Shown: piece after piece, positions 9,006-63,883 of the stretch
Numbering within the stretch: the first letter of the stretch is position 1
Layout: each line of letters begins with the position of its first letter
Source of the DNA: Pseudomonas marginalis
GTDB lineage: Bacteria > Pseudomonadota > Gammaproteobacteria > Pseudomonadales > Pseudomonadaceae
Assembly (NCBI RefSeq): GCF_008692035.1
Contig: NZ_VTFG01000001.1
Coordinates: 1,302,001-1,366,000 of the forward strand
Length of the DNA: 64,000 nt
Reading direction: 5' to 3'
Position numbers and translations under genes: made by a program
Notes under the pieces: generated by a model
What the model was told of the DNA's origin: nothing
What the model saw: the letters and a program-made list of their open reading frames with translations, nothing else
Databases searched by the model: none

Positions 9006-9165
9006 TGTGGGAGGGGGCTTGCTGTGGTGAAGGGGCTTGTCCCCCGACGGGTTCACTGAGGATACGGGGGGCCTGCTTCGCAGACCAGCGCGGGGCAAGC
9101 CCGCTCACCACAGCAAGCCTGCTCACCACAGCTAGCCTGCTCACCACAGCAAGCTCCTCCCACAT
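9006..9165. repeat. REP cluster with an expanded 18-bp tandem arm
   Basis: An inverted REP pair: GTGGGAGGGGGCTTGCTGTGG at the left and its approximate complement at the right. The right arm holds three head-to-tail 18-bp units of the form CCTGCTCACCACAGCAAG (9100-9153). No gene is seen from 8833 to 9283 apart from the Pho box and this repeat. Confidence 0.85.
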
Positions 9166-12169: not shown

Positions 12170-12294
12170 GTGGGAGGGGGCTTGCTGTGGTGAGCGGGCT
12201 TGTCCCGCGCTGGTCTGCGAAGCAGACCCACCGGATTCCTCAGTGAACCCATCGGGGGACAAGCCCCCTCACCACAGCAAGCCCCCTCCCACAG
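12170..12294. repeat. REPIN (inverted REP pair)
   Basis: Two REP sequences face each other: GTGGGAGGGGGCTTGCTGTGG at the left and CCACAGCAAGCCCCCTCCCAC at the right, enclosing a less symmetric centre. It fills the gap between the LysR gene and the YcaC-like gene and could act as a terminator or mRNA-stabilising hairpin. Confidence 0.85.
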
Positions 12295-19488: not shown

Positions 19489-19792
19489 GACTTTTTGTGG
19501 TGGGCAAGCTTTTTTTTATGGTGAGCGGGCTTGTTGTGGTGAGCAGGCTTTTTGTGGTGAGCGGGCTTGCTGTGGTGAGCGGGCTTGCCCCGCGCTGGGG
19601 CGCGTAGCGGCCCCTCATAAGGCCACCGCCATTATCCTGCCTGCCTGAACGCGGTGACTGGTTTTAGGGCCGCTTCGCAGCCCAGCGCGGGGCAAGCCCG
19701 CTCACCACAAAAAGCCTGCTCACTACAAAAAAAGCTTGCTCACCACAACAAGCTCACTAGCCACAACAAGCCCGCTCACCACGACAGCACCT
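19489..19792. repeat. REP cluster with expanded arms
   Basis: Several head-to-tail units like GTGGTGAGCGGGCTTG (about 19497-19590) face inverted units CCCGCTCACCACAA (about 19690-19790) across GCCCCGCGCTGGGGCGC. The unit period is about 18-19 bp with small variations. The whole block could form a hairpin of about 100 bp per arm. It occupies the gap 19438-19775 and overlaps the end of the HhH gene. Confidence 0.85.
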
Positions 19793-24383: not shown

Positions 24384-25735
24384 GCTGGCTGCAGCAACTG
24401 GGCGATGGCATGCGCCGCCATGCCCGGCTGATCCGTGCCATGCAATGGGCGGTGGTGCTGGCGTATGCCGTGCTGCTGGTACTGCCCGCCGCGCTGCCGT
24501 TGCCGGATAGCCAGGCGCGCATGGTGAACAACCTGACGCTGCTGGCGCAATTTATCTTCTGGGGGATCTGGTGGCCGTTCGTGTTGCTGTCGATGGTGCT
24601 GTTCGGGCGCCTGTGGTGTGGCGTGCTGTGCCCGGAGGGTTCGCTGAGCGAGTGGGCCAGCCAGCACGGGCGTGGCCTGGGCATACCGCGCTGGCTGCGT
24701 TGGGGCGGCTGGCCGACCCTGGGCTTTTGCCTCACCACGCTCTACGGCCAATTGATCAGCGTGTACGACTACGCCCAGGCAGCATTGCTGATCCTCGGCG
24801 GCTCGACGTTGGCGGCGGTGGCGGTCGGCCTGTTGTTCGTGCGCGGCAAGCGCGTGTGGTGCCGCTACCTGTGTCCGGTCAGCGGCGTGTTCGCCCTGCT
24901 CGCCCGCCTGGCGCCGGTGCATTTCGCCGTGGATGAACAACGCTGGAAAGCCAACCACGCCCCGCGCCTGCCGCTGCCCAACTGCGCGCCACTCCTGGAC
25001 ATCCGCCGCCTGCAGGGCGCCAGCGACTGCCACGCCTGTGGCCGTTGCAGCGGGCAACGCGGCGCGGTGCAACTGATCGCCCGCTCCTGCAACCAGGAGA
25101 TTCTCCAGGCGCCGCGTCAACCCGGCTCGCCGTGGGATGCGCGCCTGCTGCTGTTTGGCGTGATCGGCCTGGCCATGGGCGCGTTCCAATGGACCTTGAG
25201 CCCGTGGTTTATCGCGCTGAAACAGACACTCGCCGAATGGCTGGTGAGCCGCGACTGGCTGTGGCCGTTGCAAGACAACGCGCCGTGGTGGCTGCTCACC
25301 CACTACCCGCCACTCAACGACAGCTTCAGCTGGCTCGATGGCCTGTGCATCCTGCTGTACCTGGCTGGCAGCGCACTGCTGCTCGGCGGTGGCTGCTGGC
25401 TGCTGCTGCGCCTGGCCGCGTCTGTGGCCGGCGATCGCGCACTGTTTCGGCCCCTGGCGCTGACACTCACGCCCCTGGGTGGTGCAGGGCTGTTCCTGGG
25501 GCTGTCGGCGACGACGGTGAAGTTGTTGCGCTATGAAGGGTTGGCATTGGCGTGGGTGCAACCGGCTCGTGCACTGGTGTTGAGCGCGGCGATTGGCTGG
25601 TGCTTGTGGTTGGGGTGGCGACAGCTCCAGGGGCTTGGAATCCGGCGCCGTTGCCTCGGGTGGTTGTGCGTACTGCTGAGCAACGGCCTGGTGGGCTATG
25701 GCTGGTGGTTGCAGTTCTGGGGATGGGCTGGCTGA
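24380..25735 (+). CDS. ftrD: Polyferredoxin-type membrane protein FtrD
   Basis: A 451-residue membrane protein resembling NapH/CcoG-type ferredoxins. Cys motifs occur at CGVLCPEGS (about 75), CRYLCPVSG (about 165), CHACGRCSGQ (about 228) and ARSCNQE. About eight hydrophobic segments surround them. In FtrABCD it is proposed to accept or return electrons during iron import. It is translationally coupled to ftrC by a 4-bp overlap and is last in the operon; a REPIN follows. Confidence 0.87.
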   Translation: MSWLQQLGDGMRRHARLIRAMQWAVVLAYAVLLVLPAALPLPDSQARMVNNLTLLAQFIFWGIWWPFVLLSMVLFGRLWCGVLCPEGSLSEWASQHGRGLGIPRWLRWGGWPTLGFCLTTLYGQLISVYDYAQAALLILGGSTLAAVAVGLLFVRGKRVWCRYLCPVSGVFALLARLAPVHFAVDEQRWKANHAPRLPLPNCAPLLDIRRLQGASDCHACGRCSGQRGAVQLIARSCNQEILQAPRQPGSPWDARLLLFGVIGLAMGAFQWTLSPWFIALKQTLAEWLVSRDWLWPLQDNAPWWLLTHYPPLNDSFSWLDGLCILLYLAGSALLLGGGCWLLLRLAASVAGDRALFRPLALTLTPLGGAGLFLGLSATTVKLLRYEGLALAWVQPARALVLSAAIGWCLWLGWRQLQGLGIRRRCLGWLCVLLSNGLVGYGWWLQFWGWAG

Positions 25736-25749
25736 TGCACACCGATCCA

Positions 25750-25845
25750 AATGTGGGAGGGGGCTTGCCCCCGATGAGGGTGGGTCAGTGATACTTGGGT
25801 TGACTGACTCACCGCTATCGGGGGCAAGCCCCCTCCCACATTTTT
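25750..25845. repeat. REPIN
   Basis: Two inverted REP sequences (GTGGGAGGGGGCTTGCCCCCGAT and its complement) enclose a short inner palindrome-like stretch (GGTGGGTCAGTG...TTGACTGACTCACC). It immediately precedes SIM copy 2. Confidence 0.9.
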
Positions 25846-25849
25846 AACC

Positions 25850-26130
25850 CAGTACACCAGACACAACTCCGGTCGGCTCTAAGGCCGCCGCGCTTTGGCT
25901 TTTGATCTCAAATCGCCCCGTCAAACACGCTGGCCAAAGCCGGAGTGAGGGCACACCGAGCCTAGGCGAGGTGCCGAGTGTTGGGGCGAAGCGTTTTTTG
26001 GTTACTTTTGGCGCTCTTCCAAAAGTGACCCGCTGTAAGAGCGGAACCCTAAGTGGCCGTGACCGCAGCAACGGATATGTACTCAATCAAATCCAACGAC
26101 ATGGTCGGCCCGAAGGCCGCCACGGAAACA
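25850..26130 (+). repeat. SIM repeat copy 2 (type A, three-way-junction core deleted)
   Basis: It begins at CAGTACACCAGACACAACTCC and ends at GGATATGTACTC (26084), then the 45-bp tail shared with copy 1. The 89-bp junction core is missing: CTGGCC is joined directly to AAAGCCGGAGTGAGG. The GGTTACTTTTGG/CCAAAAGTGACC hairpin and the CCGCT/AGCGG hairpin are intact. Confidence 0.85.
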
Positions 26131-26155
26131 AGCCCCCTGACCGCACCAGCCGAAG

Positions 26156-27775
26156 TTACACCTTGAACCGCGCCACCGTCTGATGCAGCGTCCCCGCCAT
26201 CCCGGCCAGGTCGTGCCCGGCCGTCTCGGTGTGTATCGCGCCCTGCAACACCTGCTGGGACAAGTTGCGAATGCCCACCAGGTTGCGATCCACTTCCCGC
26301 GCCACCAGCGCCTGCTCTTCGGTGGCGCTGGCAATCATCATATTGCGTTCGTTGATCTGCGAGATCGACCGGGTGATCTCGTCCAGCGCTTCTCCCGAAC
26401 GTTGCGCCACGCTCAAGGTCGCCTGTACCCGCTCGCTGCTGCTGTGCATGGCGGCCACGGCGTGTTCGGTGTCCTGGCGGATATTGCCGATCATCTGCTC
26501 GATCTCCTGGGTCGAGACCTGGGTGCGATGGGCCAACGCGCGCACTTCATCGGCGACCACCGCAAACCCGCGTCCGGCTTCCCCGGCGCGGGCCGCTTCG
26601 ATGGCCGCGTTCAACGCCAGCAGGTTGGTCTGGTCGGCAATGCTGCGGATCACTTCGAGCACGCTGCTGATGTCTTGCACACGGCCGGCCAACTGCTGGA
26701 TACGCTCCGAGGTTTCCACCACACCGGTGGCCAAGGTATTGATCGACGCCACGGTTTCCTGCACCTGCGCCTGTCCACGCTGGGCGGTCTGCTCCGACAG
26801 GCGCGAGGCTTCGCTGGTGCTCACGGCATTGCGTGCCACCTCGTCGACGGCGGCGGTCATTTCGTTCACCGCCGTGGCGGCCTGTTCGATTTCCTGGCCC
26901 TGCAACTGCAGGCTGCTGCTGGTCTGGCCGCTGACCGCGCTCAACTCTTCCGACGAGCTGGCAACGCCGTCCACCGACGCGGCGATATGGCGGACCATCT
27001 GGTTGAGGCTCTGCTGCATCTGGTGCAGATTGCGCATCACACTGCCGTCGATACTGTTGCCCAACGGCACCTCGAGGGTCAGGTCGCCCTCGGCGATATG
27101 GCTCAACACCCGCGCCACTTCATCCGGCTCGCCGCCCAGCGGGCGGGTAACGCTGCGCGTGACGATCACCGCCGCCACCACCACCAGGGCCAGGCACAGC
27201 AGGAACAACCCGAGCATGGTGCGTCGTGCCTCGTCATACAGGGTTTGCGCCGCCTGCTGACGCTCGGCGAACAACCGCCCCTGCATGGCCATCAGCGCAT
27301 CCAGGCTCTTGAACACCTCAAGCTCGGCCGGGATCACCTGCTGTTTGAGCTGGGCCAGGCCCTGCTCGCGCGCGCCTTGCCGGATCAGCGCCTGCACCTG
27401 GGTGAAGGCCGCCACGTAGGCTTCGCGGTGGGTTTTCAAGGTGGCATAGGCGGCCTTGCCTTCGGCGGTGTCGAGCAGCGGTTCGAGGGTGGCGAACGCC
27501 TGGGTGATGCGCTCGCGCGTGGTGCCGATGGAGGCCTGGGCCTGTTGGTTGTCCTGGTCGATCAGCAGGTCGCGGGTGTTGCGCCCGTTATCGCGCACCC
27601 CGGTGGCGATCACCATGATCGGCGCAATTCTGGGCCAGTCCTGCTGCACGATCTGCTCGGACTGCTGCTTGAGGGTCGCCAGGTCGTGAAGGGCGTAAAA
27701 CACCAAGCCGACCAGCGCCAGCGGCGCAATCGCGAAGCCGATGACAATGCGTTGTGCCGTGGTTAATTGCTTCAT
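26156..27775 (-). CDS. Methyl-accepting chemotaxis protein
   Basis: A 539-residue chemoreceptor: membrane helix 1 (about 10-30), a periplasmic four-helix-type sensor (about 31-187), helix 2 (about 188-210), a HAMP domain and the cytoplasmic signalling hairpin with the tip [20 protein letters not shown]. It signals to CheA/CheW; the ligand is unknown. The ATG at 27775 follows AGGGA at 8 nt and begins the first helix. It is separated from nrdG by 69 bp on the same strand. Confidence 0.9.
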
Positions 27776-28723: not shown

Positions 28724-30724
28724 TCAGTGCGCAGCGGCAAGGGCCAGCACTTCATCGCACTTGGGACAGAACTCATGCTCACCGGCGAGGTAACCGTGCA
28801 CCGGGCAGATCGAGAACGTCGGGGTGATCGTCAGGTACGGCAGGCGGAAACGTCCCAACGCCTTGCGCACCAGCTGCTTGCAGGCCTGGGCCGAGGAAAT
28901 CTGCTCGGCCATGTACAGGTGCAACACGGTGCCGCCTGTGTATTTGCATTGCAGTTCGTCTTGCAGCTCCAGGGCTTCGAAGGGGTCCTGGGTAAAGCCC
29001 ACCGGCAGTTGCGAGGAGTTGGTGTAGTACGGCGCGACGTCGCTGCCGGCCTGCAGGATGTCCGGGTAGCGCTTGCGGTCTTCCTTGGCGAAGCGGTAGG
29101 TGGTGCCTTCCGCCGGGGTGGCTTCGAGGTTGTAGAGGTGGCCGGTGTCTTCCTGGAAGCGCAGCAAAGTGGCACGCACATGGTCGAGCAACTTGAGGGC
29201 AAATGCGCGGCCTTCCTCGGTGTGCATGCCCTGCTCGTCGCCGGTGAAATTGCGCAGCATCTCGTGCATGCCGTTGAGGCCGATGGTGGAGAAGTGATTG
29301 CGCAGGGTGCCGAGGTAACGCTTGGTGTAGGGGTACAAGCCGGCGTCCATATGGTGCTGGATCACCTTGCGCTTGACCTCCAGGCTTTCCATGGCCATGT
29401 CCATCAGGCTGTCCAGGCGTTGCAACAGGCCCGAGGTGTCGCCCTTGAACAGGTAACCGAGGCGCGCGCAGTTGATCGTCACCACGCCGAGGCTGCCGGT
29501 CTGCTCCGCCGAACCGAACAACCCACCGCCGCGCTTGAGCAGCTCGCGCACGTCCAGTTGCAGGCGGCAGCACATCGAGCGCACCTGGTTGGGTTGCATA
29601 TCGGAATTGAGGAAGTTCTGGAAATACGGCAGGCCGTAGCGCGCGGTCATCTCGAACAGACGGTCGGCGTTCTCGCTGTCCCAGGGGAAATCGTGGGTGA
29701 TGTTGTAGGTGGGAATCGGGAAGGTGAAGACCCGGCCCTTGGCATCGCCGGCCTGCATCACTTCGATATAGGCGCGGTTGATCAGCTCCATTTCCGCTTG
29801 CAGGTCGCCATAGGCAAACGGCATTTCCTCACCGCCGATCACCGGTACCTGCTCGCGCAGATCTTCCGGGCACACCCAGTCGAAGGTCAGGTTGGTAAAC
29901 GGCGTCTGGGTGCCCCAGCGCGACGGCACGTTGAGGTTGTAGATGAACTCCTGCACCGCCTGGCGCACCTCGGCGTAACTCAGTTGATCCTTGCGCACAT
30001 AGGGCGCCAGGTAGGTATCGAACGAGCTGAACGCCTGGGCGCCGGCCCATTCGTTTTGCAGGGTGCCGAGGAAATTGACCATCTGCCCCAGGGCGCTGCT
30101 CAAGTGCTTGGGCGGCCCGGCTTCGACACGGCCCGGCACGCCATTGAGGCCTTCGTGCAACAGCGACCGCAGCGACCAGCCGGCGCAATACCCGGCGAGC
30201 ATGTCCAGGTCATGGATATGCAGATCCGCCTCACGGTGCGCACGGCCGATCTGCTGGCTGTAGACCTCGTCGAGCCAATAGTTGGCGGTGACCTTGCCCG
30301 ACACGTTCAACACCAGCCCGCCCAGGGAATAGCCCTGGTTGGCATTGGCTTGCACACGCCAGTCTTCGCGGTCGAGGTATTCGTTCATCGAGGTGGCGAC
30401 TTCCACCAGGGTCTTGCGGTCGCGGCGCAGGCGGCCGTGTTGTTCGCGGTAGACGATATAGGCGCGCATGGAGAGGAAGTAGCCGGCGTCCATCAGCACG
30501 CGTTCGACGCTGTCCTGGATTTGTTCGACGTCCAGGTGTTCGATGCCCCTCAGGCGGGCCAGGACAGCGCCCAGTAACAGGTCGACGTCGGCCTCCTGGT
30601 ACTCGCCGGTGGCGGTACCGGCGGCGGTCAGGGCGTGGTGGATTTTTTCGGCGTTGAAGGGGACCAGGCTGCCGTCGCGTTTGTGTAGGCGGGTGCTGAC
30701 CAGCGGGGTGAGCGTGTTTTGCAT
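28724..30724 (-). CDS. nrdD: Class III anaerobic ribonucleotide reductase, large chain lacking glycyl loop
   Basis: A 666-residue chain with an N-terminal ATP-cone (about 10-100, TRLHKRDGSLVPFNAEKIHHAL), the ten-stranded barrel core (VRSMCCRLQLDVREL, GSLGVVTINCARLGYL) and a C-terminal cysteine knot (CPVHGYLAGEHEFCPKC) ending 10 residues later. The glycyl-radical loop normally found after that knot is on the next gene. It reduces ribonucleoside triphosphates under anoxia. The ATG at 30724 has GGAG at 8 nt. Anr and NrdR boxes lie upstream. Confidence 0.9.
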   Translation of the reverse strand: MQNTLTPLVSTRLHKRDGSLVPFNAEKIHHALTAAGTATGEYQEADVDLLLGAVLARLRGIEHLDVEQIQDSVERVLMDAGYFLSMRAYIVYREQHGRLRRDRKTLVEVATSMNEYLDREDWRVQANANQGYSLGGLVLNVSGKVTANYWLDEVYSQQIGRAHREADLHIHDLDMLAGYCAGWSLRSLLHEGLNGVPGRVEAGPPKHLSSALGQMVNFLGTLQNEWAGAQAFSSFDTYLAPYVRKDQLSYAEVRQAVQEFIYNLNVPSRWGTQTPFTNLTFDWVCPEDLREQVPVIGGEEMPFAYGDLQAEMELINRAYIEVMQAGDAKGRVFTFPIPTYNITHDFPWDSENADRLFEMTARYGLPYFQNFLNSDMQPNQVRSMCCRLQLDVRELLKRGGGLFGSAEQTGSLGVVTINCARLGYLFKGDTSGLLQRLDSLMDMAMESLEVKRKVIQHHMDAGLYPYTKRYLGTLRNHFSTIGLNGMHEMLRNFTGDEQGMHTEEGRAFALKLLDHVRATLLRFQEDTGHLYNLEATPAEGTTYRFAKEDRKRYPDILQAGSDVAPYYTNSSQLPVGFTQDPFEALELQDELQCKYTGGTVLHLYMAEQISSAQACKQLVRKALGRFRLPYLTITPTFSICPVHGYLAGEHEFCPKCDEVLALAAAH

Positions 30725-30738
30725 TTTCCGGGCTCCAG

Positions 30739-30754
30739 GCACTACATGTAGATA
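30739..30754 (-). promoter_or_regulatory. NrdR box, promoter-proximal copy (weak)
   Basis: GCACTACATGTAGATA matches the NrdR consensus ACACWATATATWGTGT at about 10 of 16 positions. Its centre is 31 bp (three helical turns) from the better box, the arrangement expected of paired NrdR sites. Confidence 0.45.
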
Positions 30755-30838: not shown

Positions 30839-31125
30839 GGGTACATATCCGTTATTTAGGTAACGGCGGCTTAGGGTTCCGCCCTTACGGCGGGTCACTT
30901 TTGGAAAAGAGCCCCAAAAGTAACCAAAAGGGCTCTTGCCCCAACACTCGGCACCTCGCCTAGGCTCGGTGTGCCCTCACTCCGGCTTGAATCCGTGGGC
31001 CGCCGTCATGGGCCATCCTTGGCCCAGGACGGCTAACCCGGCGTCCTGCCGGGTTACCCACGGATTCAAGCCTGCGTTCGGCCAGCGTGTTTGACGGGGC
31101 GCCTAGGATCAAGATCAAAAGCCAG
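30839..31125 (-). repeat. SIM repeat copy 3 (type B, reverse)
   Basis: The left half of composite element CE1 (30839-31597). It begins GGGTACATATCCG, the complement of the SIM 3' end, and contains every SIM hairpin, including the complete 89-bp core at 30984-31072. The type-B 5' end is marked by GATCAAGATCAAAAGCCAGAGC. Confidence 0.88.
30984..31072 (-). other. 89-bp three-way-junction core, type B
   Basis: A 16-bp closing stem (GGCTTGAATCCGTGGG and its complement) encloses a 9-bp hairpin TAACCCGGC/GCCGGGTTA and a second hairpin GCCGTC-c-TGGGCCA/TGGCCCA-t-GACGGC. All pairs are intact. Confidence 0.85.
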
Positions 31126-31177
31126 AGCAAAAGCAGAGCAAAAGCAGACCGAGTTCTAGCTGATATGTGGAGATCCA

Positions 31178-31271
31178 AATGTGGGAGGGGGCTAGCCCCC
31201 GATGAGGGAGTGTCAGTTGATGGATTTGGTACTGACCCACTGCAATCGGGGGCAAGCCCCCTCCCACATTT
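31178..31271. repeat. REPIN inside composite element CE1
   Basis: REP arms GTGGGAGGGGGCTAGCCCCCGAT and its complement flank a 47-bp interior (31201-31247) that reads GATGAGGGAGTGTCAG... The same interior occurs in CE3 in this orientation and in CE2 inverted. Confidence 0.9.
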
Positions 31272-31274
31272 ACC

Positions 31275-31597
31275 GAGTACACCAGACCCAACTCCGGTCG
31301 GCTCTAAGGCCGCCGCGCTTTGGCTCTTGATCTAAAATCGCCCCGTCAAACACGCTGGCCGAACGCAGGCTTTGGAGCGTGGGTAACCCGGCAGGACGCC
31401 GGGTTAGCCGCGCTGGGCCATGGATGGCCCATCGCGGCGGCCCACGCTCCAAAGCCTTCGTTCGGGCACACCGAGCCTAGGCGAGGTGCCGAGTGTTGGG
31501 GCGAGGACCTTTTGGTTACTTTTGGGTCCCTCCAAAAGTGAGCCGCTGTAAGAGCGGAACCCTAAGCCGCCGTTACCGAAGAAACGGATATGTACTC
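31275..31597 (+). repeat. SIM repeat copy 4 (type A, forward)
   Basis: The right half of CE1, from GAGTACACCAGACCCAACTCC to GGATATGTACTC. It carries a complete type-A core at 31368-31456. After the module comes a C/A-rich low-complexity stretch (31600-31655) running into the end of moaA. No gene is seen between 30725 and 31640. Confidence 0.9.
31368..31456 (+). other. 89-bp three-way-junction core, type A
   Basis: The closing stem is GGCTTTGGAGCGTGGG with its exact complement; the second hairpin is GCCGCG-c-TGGGCCA/TGGCCCA-t-CGCGGC with loop TGGA. Five stem pairs differ from type B in the closing stem and two in the second hairpin, all compensated. Confidence 0.85.
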
Positions 31598-31640: not shown

Positions 31641-32627
31641 TCACCCCCCACTCATATTCATAAACCGCACCACCTGCACCTCCCCCTCCCCACTGAAATC
31701 ATGCCGCAACGGCTTGCCCTTCAACCCCCTGTGCAACGCCTCGACCAACGGCCCATCCTCCAGCGGATAGCGCCGTAACAACGCGCGAAAATCCAGCGCA
31801 TCCTCCTGCCCCAGGCACAACAGCAACTGCCCTTCCACCGTCATCCGTACCCGATTACAACCGCCACAGAAATTATGGGAATTTGGCGAAATAAACCCCA
31901 CCCGCGTCCCAGGATGCCCGGCCAACCGCACATACCGCGCCGGCCCGCCGCTGTTCTCGGTGCTATCGATCAGCCCATGCTCACGGGCAATCACCGCGCG
32001 TACTTCATCGCTGGAGCAGAACGTCTCGCCCCGCGATCGCCCCACGTCCCCCAGGGGCATTTCCTCGATAAAACTGATGTCGACACCCTGGTCGATGGCG
32101 TACCGCACCAACGCCGGCACCTCGTCGAAGTTGCGCCCTTTCATCACCACGCAGTTGAGCTTGACCCGCTCGAACCCCGCATCCCGCGCGGCCTCGATAC
32201 CGTCCAGCACCTGGCGCAGGTCTCCGTTACGGGTAATCCCGCGAAAGCGTTGCGCATCCAGGCTGTCGAGGCTGATGTTCATGCGCTTGACCCCCGCCTC
32301 CACCAATGGCCGCGCCAGTCGCGCCAACTGCGAGCCATTGCTGGTCATCACCAGTTCACGCAAGCCCGGCAGTGCCGCGATGTTGCGGCACAGCCCGACA
32401 ATGCCCGGGCGAATCAGCGGTTCGCCCCCGGTGAGGCGGATCTTGCGCACGCCCTGCCCCACGAACAGCGCGGCCAGGCGTTGCAGTTCTTCCAGGGTCA
32501 ACACCTGCTGGCGCGGCAGGAATGTCATGTTTTTCGCCATGCAGTACACACAACGAAAATCGCAACGGTCGGTCACCGACAAACGCAGGTAATCGATCGA
32601 ACGGCCCACCCCATCCACCAGGCTCAT
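31641..32627 (-). CDS. moaA: GTP 3',8-cyclase MoaA
   Basis: A 328-residue radical-SAM enzyme for the first step of molybdenum-cofactor synthesis. The N-terminal cluster CDFRCVYC (about 20-27), the C-terminal cluster [18 protein letters not shown] and the essential C-terminal double glycine (SGG) are all present. It starts 1 bp after the ppi gene at the end of the nar operon and would supply cofactor for NarG. Confidence 0.92.
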
Positions 32628-45782: not shown

Positions 45783-45818
45783 GGCTGTTTGAGGCTGAAC
45801 GCGCGGCAGATAGGGCTG

Positions 45819-46045
45819 TTGTGGTGAGCGGGCTTGTCCCGCGCTGGGCTGCGTAGCAGCCCCAGTCCAGAAGAATGCGGTGTATCAGACACTCTGTAGA
45901 CACTGGTTTTGGGGCTGCTACGCAGCCCAGCGCGGGACAAGCCCGCTCACCACAAAAAGCCCGCTCACCACAGGGAGATTTGTCAGGGGCTGAAAGGTTG
46001 TGTAGATACTCATGCTCATCGGGGGGCAAGCCCCCTCCCACATTG
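45819..46045. repeat. Long perfect inverted repeat with REP units
   Basis: Two 46-bp arms (45819-45864 and 45910-45955) are exact complements (GTGGTGAGCGGGCTTGTCCC... ...GGGACAAGCCCGCTCACCAC) around a 45-bp spacer. Extra REP units follow at 45955-45980 and a half-REP (GGGGGGCAAGCCCCCTCCCAC) at 46020. It lies between narL and the dnrE-like gene; no other feature is seen in 45783-46134. Confidence 0.9.
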
Positions 46046-51834: not shown

Positions 51835-52163
51835 CAACGGATCGCGTTGCTGTTGCTGTTGCTCTGGCTGTTGCTCTGGCTCTGCTTTTGATCTTGATCT
51901 CAGGCGCCCCGTCAAACACGCTGGCCGAACGCAGGCTTGAATCCGTGGGTAACCCGGCAGGACGCCGGGTTAGCCGTCCTGGGCCAGGGATGGCCCATGA
52001 CGGCGGCCCACGGATTCAAGCCGGAGTGAGGGCACACCGAGCCTAGGCGAGGTGCCGAGTGTTGGGGCGAGGACCTTTTGCTTACTTTTGGGTCCCTCCA
52101 AAAGTGAGCCGCTGTAAGAGCGGAACCATAGGTGGCCGTTACCGTAGCAACGGATATGTACTC
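51835..52163 (+). repeat. SIM repeat copy 5 (type B, forward, solo)
   Basis: The 5' end is a CTGTTGCTCTGG-like short-repeat stretch, then GATCTTGATCTCAGGCGCCCCG, the 89-bp core at 51934-52022, the GGCACACCGAGCCTAGGC block, the TTACTTTTGG hairpin and the end GGATATGTACTC. It is not paired with a type-A copy. No gene is seen between 51712 and 52288 other than this and the adjoining REP. Confidence 0.9.
51934..52022 (+). other. 89-bp three-way-junction core, type B
   Basis: The closing stem GGCTTGAATCCGTGGG pairs perfectly with 52007-52022. The hairpins TAACCCGGC/GCCGGGTTA and GCCGTC...GACGGC (inner loop GGGA) are intact. Confidence 0.85.
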
Positions 52164-54939: not shown

Positions 54940-55127
54940 AAACCTGCCTGTATTGCCAGCAGCGCAATGCCGACGTGCGCGAGGCATGCGCCGGCTGCGG
55001 AACGTCCCTGCCCGCCGCGGATGCCAGCCTGCAAGCGCGGCGGCTACGGCGTTTCCAGTGGTTCTGCCTGGGCCTGGCGCTGTTTTGCATCGCGATGTTC
55101 TTCTGGTTGCCCCGCGACTTCTACTGA
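54936..55127 (+). CDS. dnrP: DnrP, small zinc-ribbon membrane protein
   Basis: A GTG-started 63-residue protein with two C-x2-C pairs at the N-terminus (CLYCQQRNADVREACAGCG) and one C-terminal membrane helix (FQWFCLGLALFCIAMFFW). It corresponds to DnrP found next to dnr genes in P. stutzeri and relatives; the function is unknown. It overlaps the dnr stop and ends 7 bp inside the 3' end of the convergent norD. Confidence 0.82.
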   Translation: MKTCLYCQQRNADVREACAGCGTSLPAADASLQARRLRRFQWFCLGLALFCIAMFFWLPRDFY

Positions 55128-56962
55128 CCCTCGGTCAGTTGCCGGTACAGCTGGGGCAACCGCAGCGGCAACTGCTCCGGCTGGCGGATCAGGGTGTAGC
55201 CATGGGCACCGAACATATAGGGCAAATAGTCCCCGGCCTGTCTGTCGATGGTGATGCAGAACGGAATCAGGCCCTGGCGCCGCGCCTCGACCACTGCCTG
55301 GCGGGTGTCTTCGACCCCGTAGCGGCCCTCATACAGATCCAGGTCATTGGGCTTGCCATCGGTCAGTAGCAACAACAACTTGCGCCGCTGTTTGCACGCG
55401 CCCATCAACTGGGTGGCCTGGCGAATCGCGGCGCCCATGCGCGTGTAGTACCCCGGTTTGAGGGCCTGGATACAGCCACGCGTGCGGTCGTCATAGACTT
55501 GCTCGAAGGTCTTGAGCTGGTGCAGGCGCACCTGATGGCGGCGCAGGGACGAGAAGCCATACAGTGCAAACGCATCCCCCAGCCCGTCCAGGCTTTCGCC
55601 GAACAGCAACAGGCTGTCGCGGATCACGTCGATGACCTTTTGCTCGTCGTTCAAATGCGCGTCGGTGGACATCGACAGGTCCGCCAGCAGCAGGCATGCC
55701 AGGTCGCGTCGGGTGTGACGTTGCTCCTGGTACAAGCCGCGTTCGGTGCAGGCGCCGTGTTGGCGTTGCGCGTAGAAATCCACCCAGGCTTGCAGGTCCA
55801 GCTCCGCGCCCTGGGGTTGCCGGCGCAGCCATTGGCGGTCGGTGCGCAGTTGCTGGAATTGACGGCGCAGGCGCTGGGCCGGGCCGAGTAATCGGGCCGG
55901 TAACGGTTGCGGTGCATCGGCACGTGGCTGCATCAGCTGCAGATTGACGAAACCGGGTCGAAGGCATTGTTGGCGGTAGTCCCACTCGGGCAGCTTGATG
56001 CCCTCGCCGAGGGGGATGTCATCCACATCGGCGGGCGGCAGGTCGAGGTGCAGCTTCAAGCCGCCACTCTTGCGCACGCGCTGGCGCGACAGGCTCAACT
56101 GGTCGAGGTCTTCGGCGACGCGGGCGGCGTCCGGGTCCTCACTGTCGTCGGCCCAGCGATCGAGGTCGACGTGCTCGGTCCAGCTGAACAGGTTTTCCAG
56201 GCGCACCACCAGCAGGCCGCCATCACGGCCGTGATCATCCACACGGCTGGCACGTTTGGGCGCGCCCTGCTGCTCCCCGGACGGGGTGGCGAGGTCGTCG
56301 CCGTCGTCTTCAAGATCGAGGGCCTGGGGCGTGTCCAGGTGCAACGGCGGGTACAGCCATAAGGGCAACGGCCAGGCAGCGCGTTCGCTGCGGGGCAGAT
56401 GGCGCACGCTGCCGGGCTCGCGCAGGGCCTTGCGCAGGGCTTTTTCCAGGGCGGCTTCAGCGGGACTCAGTCTGGCCGGGTCGGGGCGCAGCGTAATATG
56501 GGCGTCCACCAGGCGCTGGTAGCTGGGCAACAGCGCCGGGTAGCGTTGCAGCAGCAGCCAGGTCCAGCGCTGGTTGTCCCGGGCCCAATGGGTCATGGGG
56601 CCTGCATGGGCGGCCAGCAGCGCCAGCCAGCGGTACAGCTCCCGGTTCAAGGCGACGGTGGGGTACACCGCCAGGCTCGACGGCAGGCGTAGACGGTTGC
56701 CATCGCAGGAGGCCAGGGGTGCATGCTTGCAGGTGCCGGCGATGCGCATCAACAGGTTGCGGCGCAGCAGCAGGTCGCGTTCGCTGGCGGCTTCGAGGGC
56801 GATCCCGCTGGCACCGCCCAGGGCGCGAAACAATACGGCGAGGCTGCGCTGGCGGTCGACCAGATCGACCCGCGCGTGCGGAAAATCGACACTGGCGCGG
56901 CGGGTGATAAAGCGGTGCCAGGCACTGCCGACCCATTCTTCCAATTCAAGGGTAAAGGCCAT
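55121..56962 (-). CDS. norD: NorD, activator of nitric oxide reductase
   Basis: A 613-residue protein with a long alpha-helical N-terminal part and a C-terminal von Willebrand A domain whose metal site appears as LLADLSMSTD (about 430) and LLLLTDGKPNDLD. It works with the AAA+ protein NirQ/NorQ to mature NorCB. The ATG at 56962 has GGAG at 8 nt. In most Pseudomonas norD follows norB directly; here 978 bp of repeats lie between. Confidence 0.92.
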   Translation of the reverse strand: MAFTLELEEWVGSAWHRFITRRASVDFPHARVDLVDRQRSLAVLFRALGGASGIALEAASERDLLLRRNLLMRIAGTCKHAPLASCDGNRLRLPSSLAVYPTVALNRELYRWLALLAAHAGPMTHWARDNQRWTWLLLQRYPALLPSYQRLVDAHITLRPDPARLSPAEAALEKALRKALREPGSVRHLPRSERAAWPLPLWLYPPLHLDTPQALDLEDDGDDLATPSGEQQGAPKRASRVDDHGRDGGLLVVRLENLFSWTEHVDLDRWADDSEDPDAARVAEDLDQLSLSRQRVRKSGGLKLHLDLPPADVDDIPLGEGIKLPEWDYRQQCLRPGFVNLQLMQPRADAPQPLPARLLGPAQRLRRQFQQLRTDRQWLRRQPQGAELDLQAWVDFYAQRQHGACTERGLYQEQRHTRRDLACLLLADLSMSTDAHLNDEQKVIDVIRDSLLLFGESLDGLGDAFALYGFSSLRRHQVRLHQLKTFEQVYDDRTRGCIQALKPGYYTRMGAAIRQATQLMGACKQRRKLLLLLTDGKPNDLDLYEGRYGVEDTRQAVVEARRQGLIPFCITIDRQAGDYLPYMFGAHGYTLIRQPEQLPLRLPQLYRQLTEGQ

Positions 56963-57009
56963 GGGATGGGCTCCAACTGTTTGATGTTTGACAGGCACAC
57001 TGCAGTCAA

Positions 57010-57045
57010 AATGTGGGAGGGGCGGTGCGACGATTCGACTTGCTC
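57010..57045. repeat. REP variant upstream of norD
   Basis: GTGGGAGGGGCGGTGCGACG followed by ATTCGACTTGCTCCCGAT, the same variant as at 52196 and 57883 but in opposite orientation. Confidence 0.85.
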
Positions 57046-57087
57046 CCGATGGCGGCCTCTGGGCCGACCATTTTTTTGGATTGGACC

Positions 57088-57400
57088 GAGTGCATATCCA
57101 TTGCTGCGGTAACGGCCACTTAGGGTTCCGCTCTTACAGCGGGTCACTTTTGGAAAAGAGCCCCAAAAGTAACCAAAAGGGCTCTTGCCCCAACACTCGG
57201 CACCTCGCCTAGGCTCGGTGTGCCCTCACTCCGGCTTGAATCCGTGGGCCGCCGTCATGGGCCATCCTTGGCCCAGGACGGCTAACCCGGCGTCCTGCCG
57301 GGTTACCCACGGATTCCAGCCTGCGTTCGGCCAGCGTGTTTGACGGGGCGCCTAGGATCAAGATCAAAAGCCAGAGCAAAAGCAGACCGAGGTCCAGCTG
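57088..57400 (-). repeat. SIM repeat copy 6 (type B, reverse)
   Basis: The left half of composite element CE2 (57088-57852), starting GAGTGCATATCC. It has a complete type-B core at 57233-57321 with one mismatch in the closing stem (GGATTCCAGCC). Confidence 0.9.
57233..57321 (-). other. 89-bp three-way-junction core, type B
   Basis: Same architecture as the other type-B cores. A single A-to-C change near the outer end of the closing stem breaks one of 16 pairs. Confidence 0.82.
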
Positions 57401-57414
57401 ATATATGGAGATCC

Positions 57415-57525
57415 AAATGTGGGAGGGGCGGTGCGACGATTCGACTTGCCCCCGATTGCAGTGGGTCAGTACCAAATCCACCAACTGACACTCCCTCATC
57501 GGGGGCAAGCCCCCTCCCACATTTA
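57415..57525. repeat. REPIN inside CE2, interior inverted
   Basis: The interior 57454-57500 (GATTGCAGTGGGTCAG...) is the reverse complement, with one substitution, of the 47-bp interior in CE1 (31201-31247) and CE3 (60271-60317). Confidence 0.9.
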
Positions 57526-57527
57526 CC

Positions 57528-57852
57528 GAGTACACCAGGCACAACTCCGGTCGGCTCTAAGGCCGCCGCGCTTTGGCTTTTGATCTCAAATCGCCCCGTC
57601 AAACACGCTGGCCGAACGCAGGCTTTGGAGCGTGGGTAACCCGGCAGGACGCCGGGTTAGCCGCGCTGGGCCAAGGATGGCCCATCGCGGCGGCCCACGC
57701 TCCAAAGCCTTCGTTCGGGCACACCGAGCCTAGGCGAGGTGCCGAGTGTTGGGGCAAGAGCCCTTTTGGTTACTTTTGGCGCTCTTCCAAAAGTGACCCG
57801 CTGTAAGAGCGGAACCCTAAGCAGCCGTTACCGCAGCAACGGATATGTACTC
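57528..57852 (+). repeat. SIM repeat copy 7 (type A, forward)
   Basis: The right half of CE2: GAGTACACCAGGCACAACTCC to GGATATGTACTC, core at 57621-57709. A 30-bp tail and a REP variant (57883-57928) separate it from the norB stop. The whole gap 56963-57940 holds only repeats. Confidence 0.92.
57621..57709 (+). other. 89-bp three-way-junction core, type A
   Basis: Closing stem 57621-57636 with 57694-57709 (16 perfect pairs); hairpin 1 57637-57659; hairpin 2 57660-57691 (loop AGGA); 2-base linker GG. Outside it CCGAAC/GTTCGG extends the stem across an internal loop. Confidence 0.87.
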
Positions 57853-57882
57853 CCCCCCAAAAAGCGGTCGGCCCACAGGCCG

Positions 57883-57928
57883 CCATCGGGGGCAAGTCGA
57901 ATCGTCGCACCGCCCCTCCCACATTTGG
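57883..57928. repeat. REP variant downstream of norB
   Basis: ATCGGGGGCAAGTCGAATCG then TCGCACCGCCCCTCCCACATTTG, identical to the variant after SIM copy 5. Confidence 0.85.
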
Positions 57929-57940
57929 ACCGCGTTACCT

Positions 57941-59365
<1,425 letters not shown>

Positions 59366-59806
59366 TCAGCCCTCCTTGTTCGGTGGCCAGTTGTTGGTAT
59401 TGATCTTCGAGCTCCATTTGAGGAACTCGGCCATATCGTCCACCTCCTGGTCGCTGAGATTGAATTGCGGCATGGCCCGTCGCCCCGGTACACCCAGGGG
59501 CTGCATTTTCATCCAGGCATGCAGGAACGGCTTGAACCCTTCTTCGCCGCCCCGGCGCTTGAACACATTGCCCAGCTCCGGCGCGAAATAAGCGCCCTCG
59601 CCCAGCAAGGTGTGGCAGCCGACGCAGTTGTTGCGCTCCCAGACGCCTTTGCCGCGCACGACAGATTCGGTGAGTTGGTCGACGTTGCTGCGGGCGGGAA
59701 AGGTTTGTTCGGTGTGGTAGGTCAGGGCCAGGAAAATCAGGAAGAAGAACACGCTTCCTCCGAAATAGATATTCCTGGCCATGCCCTTGGTGAAGGTCTC
59801 TGACAT
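59366..59806 (-). CDS. norC: Nitric oxide reductase cytochrome c subunit NorC
   Basis: A 146-residue membrane-anchored cytochrome c: an N-terminal helix (about 14-31), haem motif CVGCH (61-65) and axial methionine in RRAMPQF. It passes electrons to NorB. GAGGAA lies before the ATG. A perfect Anr/Dnr box and a TATCAT -10 lie upstream. Confidence 0.95.
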   Translation of the reverse strand: MSETFTKGMARNIYFGGSVFFFLIFLALTYHTEQTFPARSNVDQLTESVVRGKGVWERNNCVGCHTLLGEGAYFAPELGNVFKRRGGEEGFKPFLHAWMKMQPLGVPGRRAMPQFNLSDQEVDDMAEFLKWSSKINTNNWPPNKEG

Positions 59807-59834
59807 GGTCGCTTCCTCATGGCTTGGCCAGGGA

Positions 59835-59840
59835 ATGATA
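59835..59840 (-). promoter_or_regulatory. -10 element of norC
   Basis: TATCAT on the minus strand lies 33 bp from the centre of the Dnr box, the spacing of an FNR-type class II promoter. The predicted transcription start near 59829 leaves a leader of about 22 nt. Confidence 0.6.
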
Positions 59841-59863
59841 GGGAGGTGGGGGGTGGAAACTGC

Positions 59864-59877
59864 TTGATGGCGATCAA
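59864..59877 (-). promoter_or_regulatory. Perfect Anr/Dnr box of norC
   Basis: TTGATGGCGATCAA matches TTGAT-N4-ATCAA at all 10 fixed positions. It lies 58 bp from the norC start. By analogy with P. aeruginosa it is probably read by Dnr in the presence of NO. Confidence 0.82.
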
Positions 59878-59932
59878 GAATTGTTGATGGTTTTGGTGGG
59901 GTATTTTTTTGGGGGTTGGGTTGGGTACATAT

Positions 59933-60238
59933 CCGTTATTTAGGTAACGGCGGCCTATGGTTCCGCTCTTACAGCGGGTCACTTTGGAAAAGAGCCCCAA
60001 AGTAACCAAAGGGCTCTTGCCCCAACACTCGGTGCCTCGCCTAGGCTCGGCATGCCCTCACTCCGGCTTGAATCCGTGGGCCGCCGTCATGGGCCATCCT
60101 TGGCCCAGGACGGCTAACCCGGCGTCCTGCCGGGTTACCCACGGATTCAAGCCTGCGTTCGGCCAGCGTGTTTGACGGGGCGCCCAGGATCAAGATCAAA
60201 AGCCAGAGCAAAAGCAGGCTGAGGCCTGCCTGCTGGAT
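59933..60238 (-). repeat. SIM repeat copy 8 (type B, reverse)
   Basis: The left half of composite element CE3 (59933-60465). Core at 60065-60153. In the TTACTTTTGG hairpin (59977-60007) one T:A pair has been lost from both arms at once (GGTCACTTTGG and CCAAAGTAACC). Confidence 0.9.
60065..60153 (-). other. 89-bp three-way-junction core, type B
   Basis: Closing stem GGCTTGAATCCGTGGG with a perfect complement, both inner hairpins intact, length 89 bp as in all other copies. Confidence 0.85.
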
Positions 60239-60248
60239 GGAGATCCAA

Positions 60249-60342
60249 ATGTGGGAGGGGGCTTGCCCCCGATGAGGGAGTGTCAGTTGATGGATTTGGT
60301 ACTGACCCACTGCAATCGGGGGCAAGCCCCCTCCCACATTTT
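60249..60342. repeat. REPIN inside CE3
   Basis: GTGGGAGGGGGCTTGCCCCCGAT and its complement around a 47-bp interior (60271-60317) identical to that of CE1. Confidence 0.9.
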
Positions 60343-60347
60343 TAACC

Positions 60348-60465
60348 GAGTACACCAGACCCAACACCGGTCGGCTCTAAGGCCGCCGCGGCTTGGCTTT
60401 TGATCTGGAGTGAGGGCATACCGAGCCTCGTAAGCAGCCGCTACGCAAATAACGGATATGTACTC
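60348..60465 (+). repeat. SIM repeat copy 9 (type A, large deletion)
   Basis: The right half of CE3: GAGTACACCAGACCCAACACC to GGATATGTACTC in only 118 bp. The core and the TTACTTTTGG hairpin are deleted (GATCT joined to GGAGTGAGGGC, then CCGAGCCTCG joined to TAAGCAGCCG). No gene is seen in 59807-60440 besides the norC control region and CE3. Confidence 0.85.
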
Positions 60466-60683
60466 AGTAAAGCGACCACAACCACCCCCCACCCCAGCAT
60501 CAAAAATCTCCACAACACTGGCCCGCGCCGCAACGCCATAAACCCATCCACAATCACCCACCCCTTGACCACCGCCAGCAGCAACACCGCCCACCACAAC
60601 CCGGACGCCCCCGTCAGCACAGTGCCAACGCTCAGCACCACCAACATCAGCCAACACAGGATCAGCGTCCGGGAACCCGTCAT
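60441..60683 (-). CDS. nirP: NirP/NorF-type small membrane protein
   Basis: An 80-residue protein with three hydrophobic segments, of the cytochrome-oxidase-subunit-IV/NorF type (WWAVLLLAVVKGWVIVDGFM). It accompanies the subunit III-like NirO/NorE and probably aids NO reductase function or assembly. The ATG at 60683 has GAGG at 5 nt. It starts 7 bp after the nirO stop. Confidence 0.82.
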   Translation of the reverse strand: MTGSRTLILCWLMLVVLSVGTVLTGASGLWWAVLLLAVVKGWVIVDGFMALRRGPVLWRFLMLGWGVVVVALLSTYPLFA

Positions 60684-60690
60684 ACACACC

Positions 60691-61254
60691 TCAGCGAATC
60701 ACATAGACCAGCGGAAACAACACCACCCACACCAGATCCACCATGTGCCAATACAGCACCCCCGACTCCAGCCCGCCGACCGACAGCCCGCCGCGCCAGC
60801 AGCCCAGCGCCAGCCACCCGAGAATCACCATCCCCAGCAGCACATGCAGGAAATGAAACCCCGTGAGTATCCAGTACAAGGTAAAAAACGTGCCGTGCTC
60901 CAGGCCCAGTCCGGCAGCGCCCAGGTGGGCGTACTCGCCAAGCTTGATCCCCACATACACCAGCGCCACCAACAACGCCGCGACGAACAAACCGGCGCCG
61001 CGTCGCCAGCACTGCAATCGCACCTGCTGCACCGCCAACGCGGCCAACAAGCCTGCGGTCAGCAGGCTCAAGGTCATCGCCAACCCGGTCGAGGTATCCA
61101 GCTGTGCGCGCCCGGCGGCAAACAGCTCGGGCTTGAGCGCCTGGGTCACGGCAAACGTGAGGATCAGAATCGCGAACACCAACAGCTCGGCGAGGATAAA
61201 AAACCACATCGCCAGGTCGCCTGGCAGCCGGCGCGGTTCAGGCAAAGTGCACAT
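60691..61254 (-). CDS. nirO: NirO/NorE, cytochrome c oxidase subunit III-like protein
   Basis: A 187-residue protein with five membrane helices resembling haem-copper oxidase subunit III (LAMWFFILAELLVFAILIL; HGTFFTLYWILTGFHFLHVLLGM; YWHMVDLVWVVLFPLVYV). It lies in the order nirQ-nirO-nirP known from P. aeruginosa. Its start overlaps nirQ by 17 bp. Confidence 0.88.
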   Translation of the reverse strand: MCTLPEPRRLPGDLAMWFFILAELLVFAILILTFAVTQALKPELFAAGRAQLDTSTGLAMTLSLLTAGLLAALAVQQVRLQCWRRGAGLFVAALLVALVYVGIKLGEYAHLGAAGLGLEHGTFFTLYWILTGFHFLHVLLGMVILGWLALGCWRGGLSVGGLESGVLYWHMVDLVWVVLFPLVYVIR

Positions 61255-62014
61255 CCACCACGTCCATCAGCGCGGCGACGGTCTGCGGGTCGTCGCTCAG
61301 CGGTTCGGCCAGGCAGGCCAGGCAGGCTTCGCGTGGGCTCATGCCGGCGCCGATCAGGCGGGCGGTGAAGATCAGCAGCCGGGTGGAGGCCACCTCCTCC
61401 AGGTCATGCTGGTCAAGCCGACGCAGCGCCTGGCCCAGGCGCACGACCTGGGCGGCCAGCGCCACATCCACACCGGCCTCGCGGGCGACGATGCGTTCTT
61501 CGTCGGCCACCGGCGGGTAACCAAACCGCATCGCCACGAAGCGCTGGCGGGTGCTGGGTTTCATGCCCTTGAGCAGGTTCTGGTAGCCGGGGTTGTACGA
61601 CACCACCAGCATGAACGACGACGGCGCCTTGAGCACTTCGCCGGTGCGTTCCAGGAACAGTTCGCGGCGTTCATCGGCAATCGGGTGCAGCACCACGGCG
61701 GTGTCCTGGCGCGCTTCCACCACTTCGTCGAGGTAGCAGATCCCGCCTTCGCGCACGGCGCGGGTCAGTGGGCCGTCCTGCCACCAGGTGCCGTCGGTGC
61801 CGATCAGGTGGCGGCCGAGCAGGTCGGCGGCGCTGAGGTCGTCGTGGCAGGCCACGGTGTACAGAGGCAGGTTCAGGCGGTGCGCCATGTGCTGCACGAA
61901 GCGCGTCTTGCCACAGCCCGTGGGGCCTTTGATCAGCACCGGCAGGTGGTGGCGCCAGGCGTGTTCGAACAGCTGCTGTTCGTTATCCAGCGGTTGGTAG
62001 AAGGGCTCGGTCAT
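61238..62014 (-). CDS. nirQ: NirQ, MoxR-type AAA+ ATPase
   Basis: A 258-residue ATPase with Walker A GPTGCGKT (30-37) and Walker B ICYLDEVVEA. Together with NorD it activates NO reductase after assembly and was first linked to nitrite reductase regulation. The ATG at 62014 was chosen over a longer frame that runs into the nirS control region. It is divergent from nirS (195-bp gap). Confidence 0.92.
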   Translation of the reverse strand: MTEPFYQPLDNEQQLFEHAWRHHLPVLIKGPTGCGKTRFVQHMAHRLNLPLYTVACHDDLSAADLLGRHLIGTDGTWWQDGPLTRAVREGGICYLDEVVEARQDTAVVLHPIADERRELFLERTGEVLKAPSSFMLVVSYNPGYQNLLKGMKPSTRQRFVAMRFGYPPVADEERIVAREAGVDVALAAQVVRLGQALRRLDQHDLEEVASTRLLIFTARLIGAGMSPREACLACLAEPLSDDPQTVAALMDVVDVHFA

Positions 62015-62091
62015 CACGCGTACTCGCAACGGGTTCGGCCCCCACGCTAAGGGCCCCTGCGACAACCTGGCAAGCACGTACAACGGCAAAC

Positions 62092-62105
62092 TTGATCGCC
62101 GTCAA
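62092..62105 (+). promoter_or_regulatory. Anr/Dnr box of nirS (and possibly nirQ)
   Basis: TTGATCGCCGTCAA matches the consensus at 9 of 10 fixed positions. It lies 31 bp before CATAGT (62127-62132), a plausible -10, placing transcription start near 62139. It may also serve the divergent nirQ. Confidence 0.75.
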
Positions 62106-62131
62106 GCGAGCCTTGCGCGACTGCAACATAG

Positions 62132-63883
<1,752 letters not shown>

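Follow-up and report, generated by a model that had tools for sequence, protein, structure and literature searches.

The REPIN at 57.4 kb of the window, the 64,000-nucleotide stretch of DNA analysed here (G000:C1:1302001-1366000, part of a 6.94-Mb Pseudomonas genome, G000), occupies a fixed central slot of a palindromic repeat and carries its interior in the opposite direction to other copies of the same slot. This interior flip inside fixed flanks is supported by direct comparison of the copies, and two such interiors recur in both orientations across slots and genomes.

The element is a REPIN, its two inverted REP arms separated by a 47-bp spacer, and is held in the fixed central slot of a ~900-bp REP-bounded palindromic repeat. 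The palindrome at 57.0-57.9 kb carries long-form REP arms at its ends, two inverted halves of ~195 nt and the REPIN at its center. Specifically, and on the plus strand unless stated, the outer boundaries at 57002-57079 and 57856-57933, each with a long-form REP arm, are inverted copies of one another (91%), while the left outer half (57156-57350) is an inverted copy of the right outer half (57592-57786; 195 nt, 89% complementary). Between the halves, a left slot marker (57375-57414) and a right slot marker (57525-57569), which are non-identical to each other, enclose the REPIN itself (57415-57524). The 932 nt from 57005 to 57936 fold as a single hairpin at -475 kcal/mol (z -41, 20 shuffles). 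Other copies of the composite, full or partial, lie at 0, 25.8, 31, 52 and 60 kb of the window and elsewhere in the genome, and the outer halves are 84-96% complementary within and between window composites (longest pairs).

Three properties place the central element among the REPINs. It contains two inverted REP sequences with a spacer; the single-stranded DNA hairpins of three REPINs fold at -34.2, -36.9 and -40.5 kcal/mol (z -6.3 to -9.9), with 57415-57524 giving -34.2 kcal/mol and z -6.3; and copies are dispersed, with at least 86 G000 matches to an 88-nt query of REPIN plus flank, several of them single arms (40 of 460 candidates scored). In addition, G000 contains two Y1_Tnp (PF01797) genes, which are candidate RAYTs, one of them (C1:1665653-1665859) located ~90 bp from a REPIN. 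In its inverted GGGGGCTTGCCCCC-type REPs, short spacer, hairpin and the presence of RAYT-like genes in the genome, the element resembles the GI-type REPIN of Pseudomonas fluorescens SBW25 as far as the description in PMC3116915 goes; unlike the REPIN described there, it is fixed within a larger palindrome, has arms that are sometimes asymmetric and occurs in both orientations. The short-armed slot REPINs measure 89 bp, from TGTGGG to CCCACA, the length given for the R0 repeat family of SBW25 with its 24-bp inverted repeats (Silby 2009, PMC2718517), a likeness of description and not of sequence. A second palindromic repeat family, with arms GTGGTGAGCGGGCTTG...CAAGCCCGCTCACCAC, is found in the window at 9011-9154, 12174-12288, 19529-19727 and 45808-45972.

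The outer halves match the TwoAYGGAY RNA family (RF01731), with six hits in the window at 46.5-61 bits against a gathering score of 43: 30977-31079, 31353-31471, 51927-52029, 57226-57328 (left half, minus strand, 46.5 bits), 57606-57724 (right half, plus strand, 58.7 bits) and 60058-60160. An inverted pair is present in each of the two complete window composites, and a further 20 hits fall in eight of nine additional loci searched, the ninth (L320) having none. The GGCCANGGAYGGCC hairpin occurs in all six RF01731 halves (six window matches against 0.01 expected), and each of the three halves folded takes a Y shape with two GGA loops. The CANGGAYG loops resemble the RsmA/RsmE site. Unlike plain TwoAYGGAY RNA, the pair here is inverted around a REPIN in a REP-bounded repeat, and the findings suggest that the family in these genomes is part of a REP-linked repeat. 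TwoAYGGAY is presented in the available text of PMC4333381 as known from Clostridia and proposed to bind CsrA. The outer halves are accordingly described here as a candidate CsrA/RsmA-binding RNA multiplied within the repeat. The composites lie among apparent denitrification genes (55121-63883), including genes for a VWA-domain protein and a cytochrome D1 protein; moaA (31641-32627) and an anaerobic ribonucleotide reductase (28724-30742) are also nearby. The VWA-domain protein at 55121-56998, which we take to be NorD, has its closest relatives among the matches listed (96%) in P. grimontii DSM 17515, Pseudomonas sp. JAI120 and Pseudomonas sp. MIACH.

Interior A denotes the 47-bp spacer, with '+' defined as the orientation at 31201-31247 and 60271-60317. 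As the initial annotation had described, these two copies are identical (47/47), 57454-57500 matches their reverse complement at all but one of the 47 positions and so lies on the minus strand, and both slot flanks around the 57k REPIN keep the orientation that they have in other composites. The 46/47 match is far from chance, since the next-best ungapped 47-base match in the window reaches 29/47 forward and 28/47 reversed. Near-symmetry of the element does not explain the flip either, because interior A is only 0.64 identical to its own reverse complement. Across the whole of G000, a 40-base interior-A pattern (up to 3 mismatches) has four matches, three '+' and one '-', the sole '-' match being 57454-57493. 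All four lie in slots (31k +, 57k -, 60k +, 1460.8k +), and a search of the whole genome at the same threshold found no dispersed interior-A donor outside them.

The arms add a second asymmetry. Slot states are written as interior, orientation and arms, so that the REPINs in S31 (31177-31271) and S60 (60247-60341), with both arms short, are A+ss; A-Ls, with a long left arm, is the state of S57, and A+sR has a long right arm. The left arm of the 57k REPIN (57415-57456) is a long variant in which a 16-nt tag, CGGTGCGACGATTCGA (57429-57444), replaces one G; it is not present in the 31k and 60k copies. When reverse-complemented, the whole 57k REPIN matches the 60k copy without a difference over 43 bases until the single substitution is reached, and beyond it the far arms differ in length. 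In the copy at 1460.8k of the contig, interior A is reversed relative to 57k and the tag sits in the right arm instead of the left. The tag travels with the interior more widely: A-Ls is found at 57.4k and in G282-S60, and A+sR at 1460.8k and in G282-1567k. This exchange of sides by tag and interior between 57.4k and 1460.8k is as expected of a tip-to-tip flip of the whole REPIN, and what turned was probably the entire REPIN and not its 47-bp interior. The earlier reading of an inverted REPIN centre thus holds for a flip within fixed flanks but is not supported for a turn of the interior alone, as the tag moves with it. The 31k and 60k copies are short on both arms and therefore need an added event, either arm exchange or tag loss. 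The state A+Ls, with tag left and interior '+', is found at G279-1369k and in a chimeric copy (G101-C43); these copies would need an inner flip or arm exchange.

Both orientations recur among 26 slots tabulated from four genomes (G000, G282, G279 and G101), taken from fetched loci with markers on at least one side and omitting REPINs without markers and truncated slots. Two of the truncated slots so omitted, both in G101 (L247 at 16.7 kb and L255 at 5.2 kb), read '-' and have the left arm in its long form. Interiors A, B or C fill 22 of the 26. Interior A is '+' in eight and '-' in two; interior B is represented by seven exact copies across the four genomes, three '+' and four '-', all in whole or partial slots; and interior C is '-' in all five of its slots. 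The orthologous S25.7 site provides a same-site comparison, with B+ in G000 (REPIN at 25749-25843) and B- in G279, whose 51-base cores show 0 mismatches as reverse complements and 17 when compared forward. This site has been rearranged too, because its composite (25640-26180 in G000; L243:10430-11110; L240:18160-19060) lacks the left half in G000 and the right half in G279, both being present in G282. In G000 the left half is missing between two direct REP copies and the joint lies in a REP, so that REP arms seem to have acted as endpoints of deletions as well. A further interior in G234 is '+' at two places, one of them with the right marker only, and '-' at one, the flip between L315 and L337 scoring 0.89 reversed and 0.70 forward. 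For the best opposite-orientation pair, S31 and S57, the flanks are only 0.93 alike per side. Orientation varies among the genomes seen and the flanks are shared between slots, the opposite of the fixed orientation and the independent insertions with distinct flanks by which the initial annotation would have been refuted.

Slot contents are shuffled between composites. Identical flanks (40 nt left, 45 nt right) hold A+ss in G101-C6, A+sR in G282-1567k and B-ss in G101-C15, and a collapsed 34-nt REPIN at G279-C5-375k sits in flanks with a single right-side difference from these. Together with the restriction of interior A to slots in G000, this supports the exchange or gene conversion among composites that had been proposed for the element. 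Each orientation of B is found with each of the two left-flank haplotypes, so orientation also moves by exchange and the number of copies does not give the number of events. In G282, listed as the same species as G000, five of the eight G000 slots were paired (S226, S1460 and S1833 were not), and contents agree in none of the five: S1301 holds B+ss in G000 and C-Ls in G282, S25.7 B+ss and a hybrid, S31 A+ss and B-sR, S57 A-Ls and a lost REPIN, and S60 A+ss and A-Ls. Among the orthologous slots paired in G282, G279 and G101, only S31 in G101 still holds A+ss as in G000. Where G000 has the 57k composite, G279 (L245, C1, from ~1480) has an interior-C REPIN followed by tandem ~165-bp units with REP arms. 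The S60 centre of G282, together with its markers (L242:13452-13561), has the opposite chromosomal orientation to that in G000, and G282-S60 shares the private substitution and the left flank type of G000-S57.

REPINs outside slots kept their content more often. Within 471 kb of G000 and 480 kb of G282, 28 G000 REPINs comprise six in slots and 22 elsewhere; the S57 row of this site comparison mapped to a different composite and was excluded. For the 22, flanks are unmapped in six, G282 has no REPIN in six, interiors are unrelated or ambiguous in three and the same in seven. Interior and direction are therefore kept at 7/10 comparable non-slot sites, against 0/5 slots (Fisher P = 0.026), although the non-slot sites are not all single-copy, 1710519 (among the seven) and 1709972 (among the three) lying in a small tandem array. 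No flip is found among the seven non-slot REPINs with related interiors in the two genomes. One of the three sites with unrelated or ambiguous interiors was called 'FLIP' by script, at scores of -6.5 and -4.0, and was discounted. Widening the search by 400 kb per side added two further REPINs, both with unmapped flanks.

The initial annotation regarded the 57k copy as the inverted one, and comparison with other slots points to the opposite polarity. Sixteen REPINs in slots or slot-like settings served as comparators: one is an array from G282 and the remaining 15 belong to different species or genomes. Same-locus repeats and REPINs of other arm types were omitted; some comparators share a genome (three in G234, two in G017, two in G031), and L321 and L351 have the right marker only. 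Relative to A, 12 of the 16 are nearer '-', the 57k orientation, two are within 0.02 and two, both from G234, are nearer '+'. Moreover, two half-slot A copies with matching surroundings, one in G282 and one in G101, are A- with the same long left arm as 57k. Because 12/16 comparators and the two half-slot relatives read like 57k, the orientation at 31k and 60k is probably derived; the 57k copy would then hold the ancestral orientation and arm arrangement, with the 31k, 60k and 1460.8k copies derived. The call for an ancestral '-' is weaker when B (11/16 nearer '-', three ties, two nearer '+') or C (10/16 nearer '-', two ties, four nearer '+') serves as reference.

We lean, at a little better than even confidence, towards a rare turn of the REPIN in place by way of its own two arms, with ectopic gene conversion afterwards carrying the result between composites. 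The two orientations and the exchange are read directly from the aligned copies, and from them we infer the inversion in place. The whole REPIN would turn over rarely, its inverted arms, which have 14-bp outer tips and form a hairpin stem of ~24 bp, undergoing strand exchange or a template switch during replication. Within this clade, interiors A and B would each have turned at least once, and a further turn would be called for in G234. The composites have outer halves of ~200 nt in common, and gene conversion among them would then have spread both the turned and the unturned REPINs across the slots. Inversion of hairpin loops by replication template switching has a precedent in rRNA, bacterial examples included, in the available account (PMC8794818); there too the hairpin loop is reversed while the stem stays, but the loops it gives are typically 4 and up to 7-8 nt, compared with 47 bp here. 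Several observations stand against this reading: the seven non-slot sites, a small sample in which arm-driven inversion should act too, contain no flip; interior C is never '+' (5/5 '-'); and the weaker polarity with B or C as reference, the movement of B orientation by exchange, the imperfect flank match of S31 and S57, the rearrangement at S25.7 and the A+Ls copies count on the same side. Recombination between the outer halves is ruled out as the cause of the 57k flip, since the slot markers of S57 are unturned; whole-centre inversion does occur elsewhere, in G282-S60.

An alternative that is possible, if rather doubtful, dispenses with the in-place turn and has the REPIN copied between palindromic composites paired in opposite register, within a conversion tract that does not reach beyond the REPIN itself, so that the donor interior would come in reversed. 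Its products would be the same as those of in-place inversion, and several features speak for it: REPIN-bounded exchange is real, the identical 40-nt and 45-nt flanks carrying A+ or B-; the outer halves have the complementarity noted above both within and between window composites; and the whole S60 centre of G282, markers included, is inverted relative to G000. However, the tract would have to stay below ~100 nt and be anchored by ~24-bp arms between markers that are heterologous on either side, and the in-place turn is simpler for S25.7, where the same exact interior occupies the same site in both orientations.

That a RAYT transposase excised REPINs and reinserted them reversed, or that independent REPINs entered the slot, is unlikely. 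The two Y1_Tnp genes of G000, one of them ~90 bp from a REPIN, would be compatible with it, as would the REPIN excision reads in SBW25 that Bertels and Rainey report (2011; PMC3116915, in the text available). Nevertheless, the REPIN starts after GATCC in 26/26 slots and is followed by the right marker, mostly with T-tract differences only; these constant slot boundaries, partly a matter of construction because slots were found by tip patterns, argue against reinsertion, as does the restriction of interior A in G000 to slots (4/4). Misassembly at a short inverted repeat is the least credible explanation of the reversed centre: a 47-bp loop between near-identical arms within repeats is hard for short reads, and G101 and G279 are in ~60 and ~20 contigs, but G000 has nine contigs (C1 of 4.2 Mb) and G282 four, both orientations are present inside G000 and differ there in their arm tags, and G282-S60 repeats the private substitution of S57.

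A reversible DNA switch, in which the REPIN between opposed TwoAYGGAY units would turn repeatedly, perhaps aided by RAYT, and choose the strand whose hairpins become RNA beside the denitrification genes, is a speculation to which we give very little credence. In the available literature on REPIN/REP orientation, inversion, gene conversion and RAYT, no report of REPIN orientation switching was found; REPINs are treated there as populations of mobile units, and the direction of a REPIN at its site was not met as evidence. In the slots described here, the arm tag and the non-palindromic interior are two asymmetries that expose inversion and exchange, and whether REPINs invert in place or are converted becomes directly testable with the slots as a set and the orthologous site S25.7. 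Collectively, these asymmetries point to the REP arms as joints for inversion, swapping and deletion.
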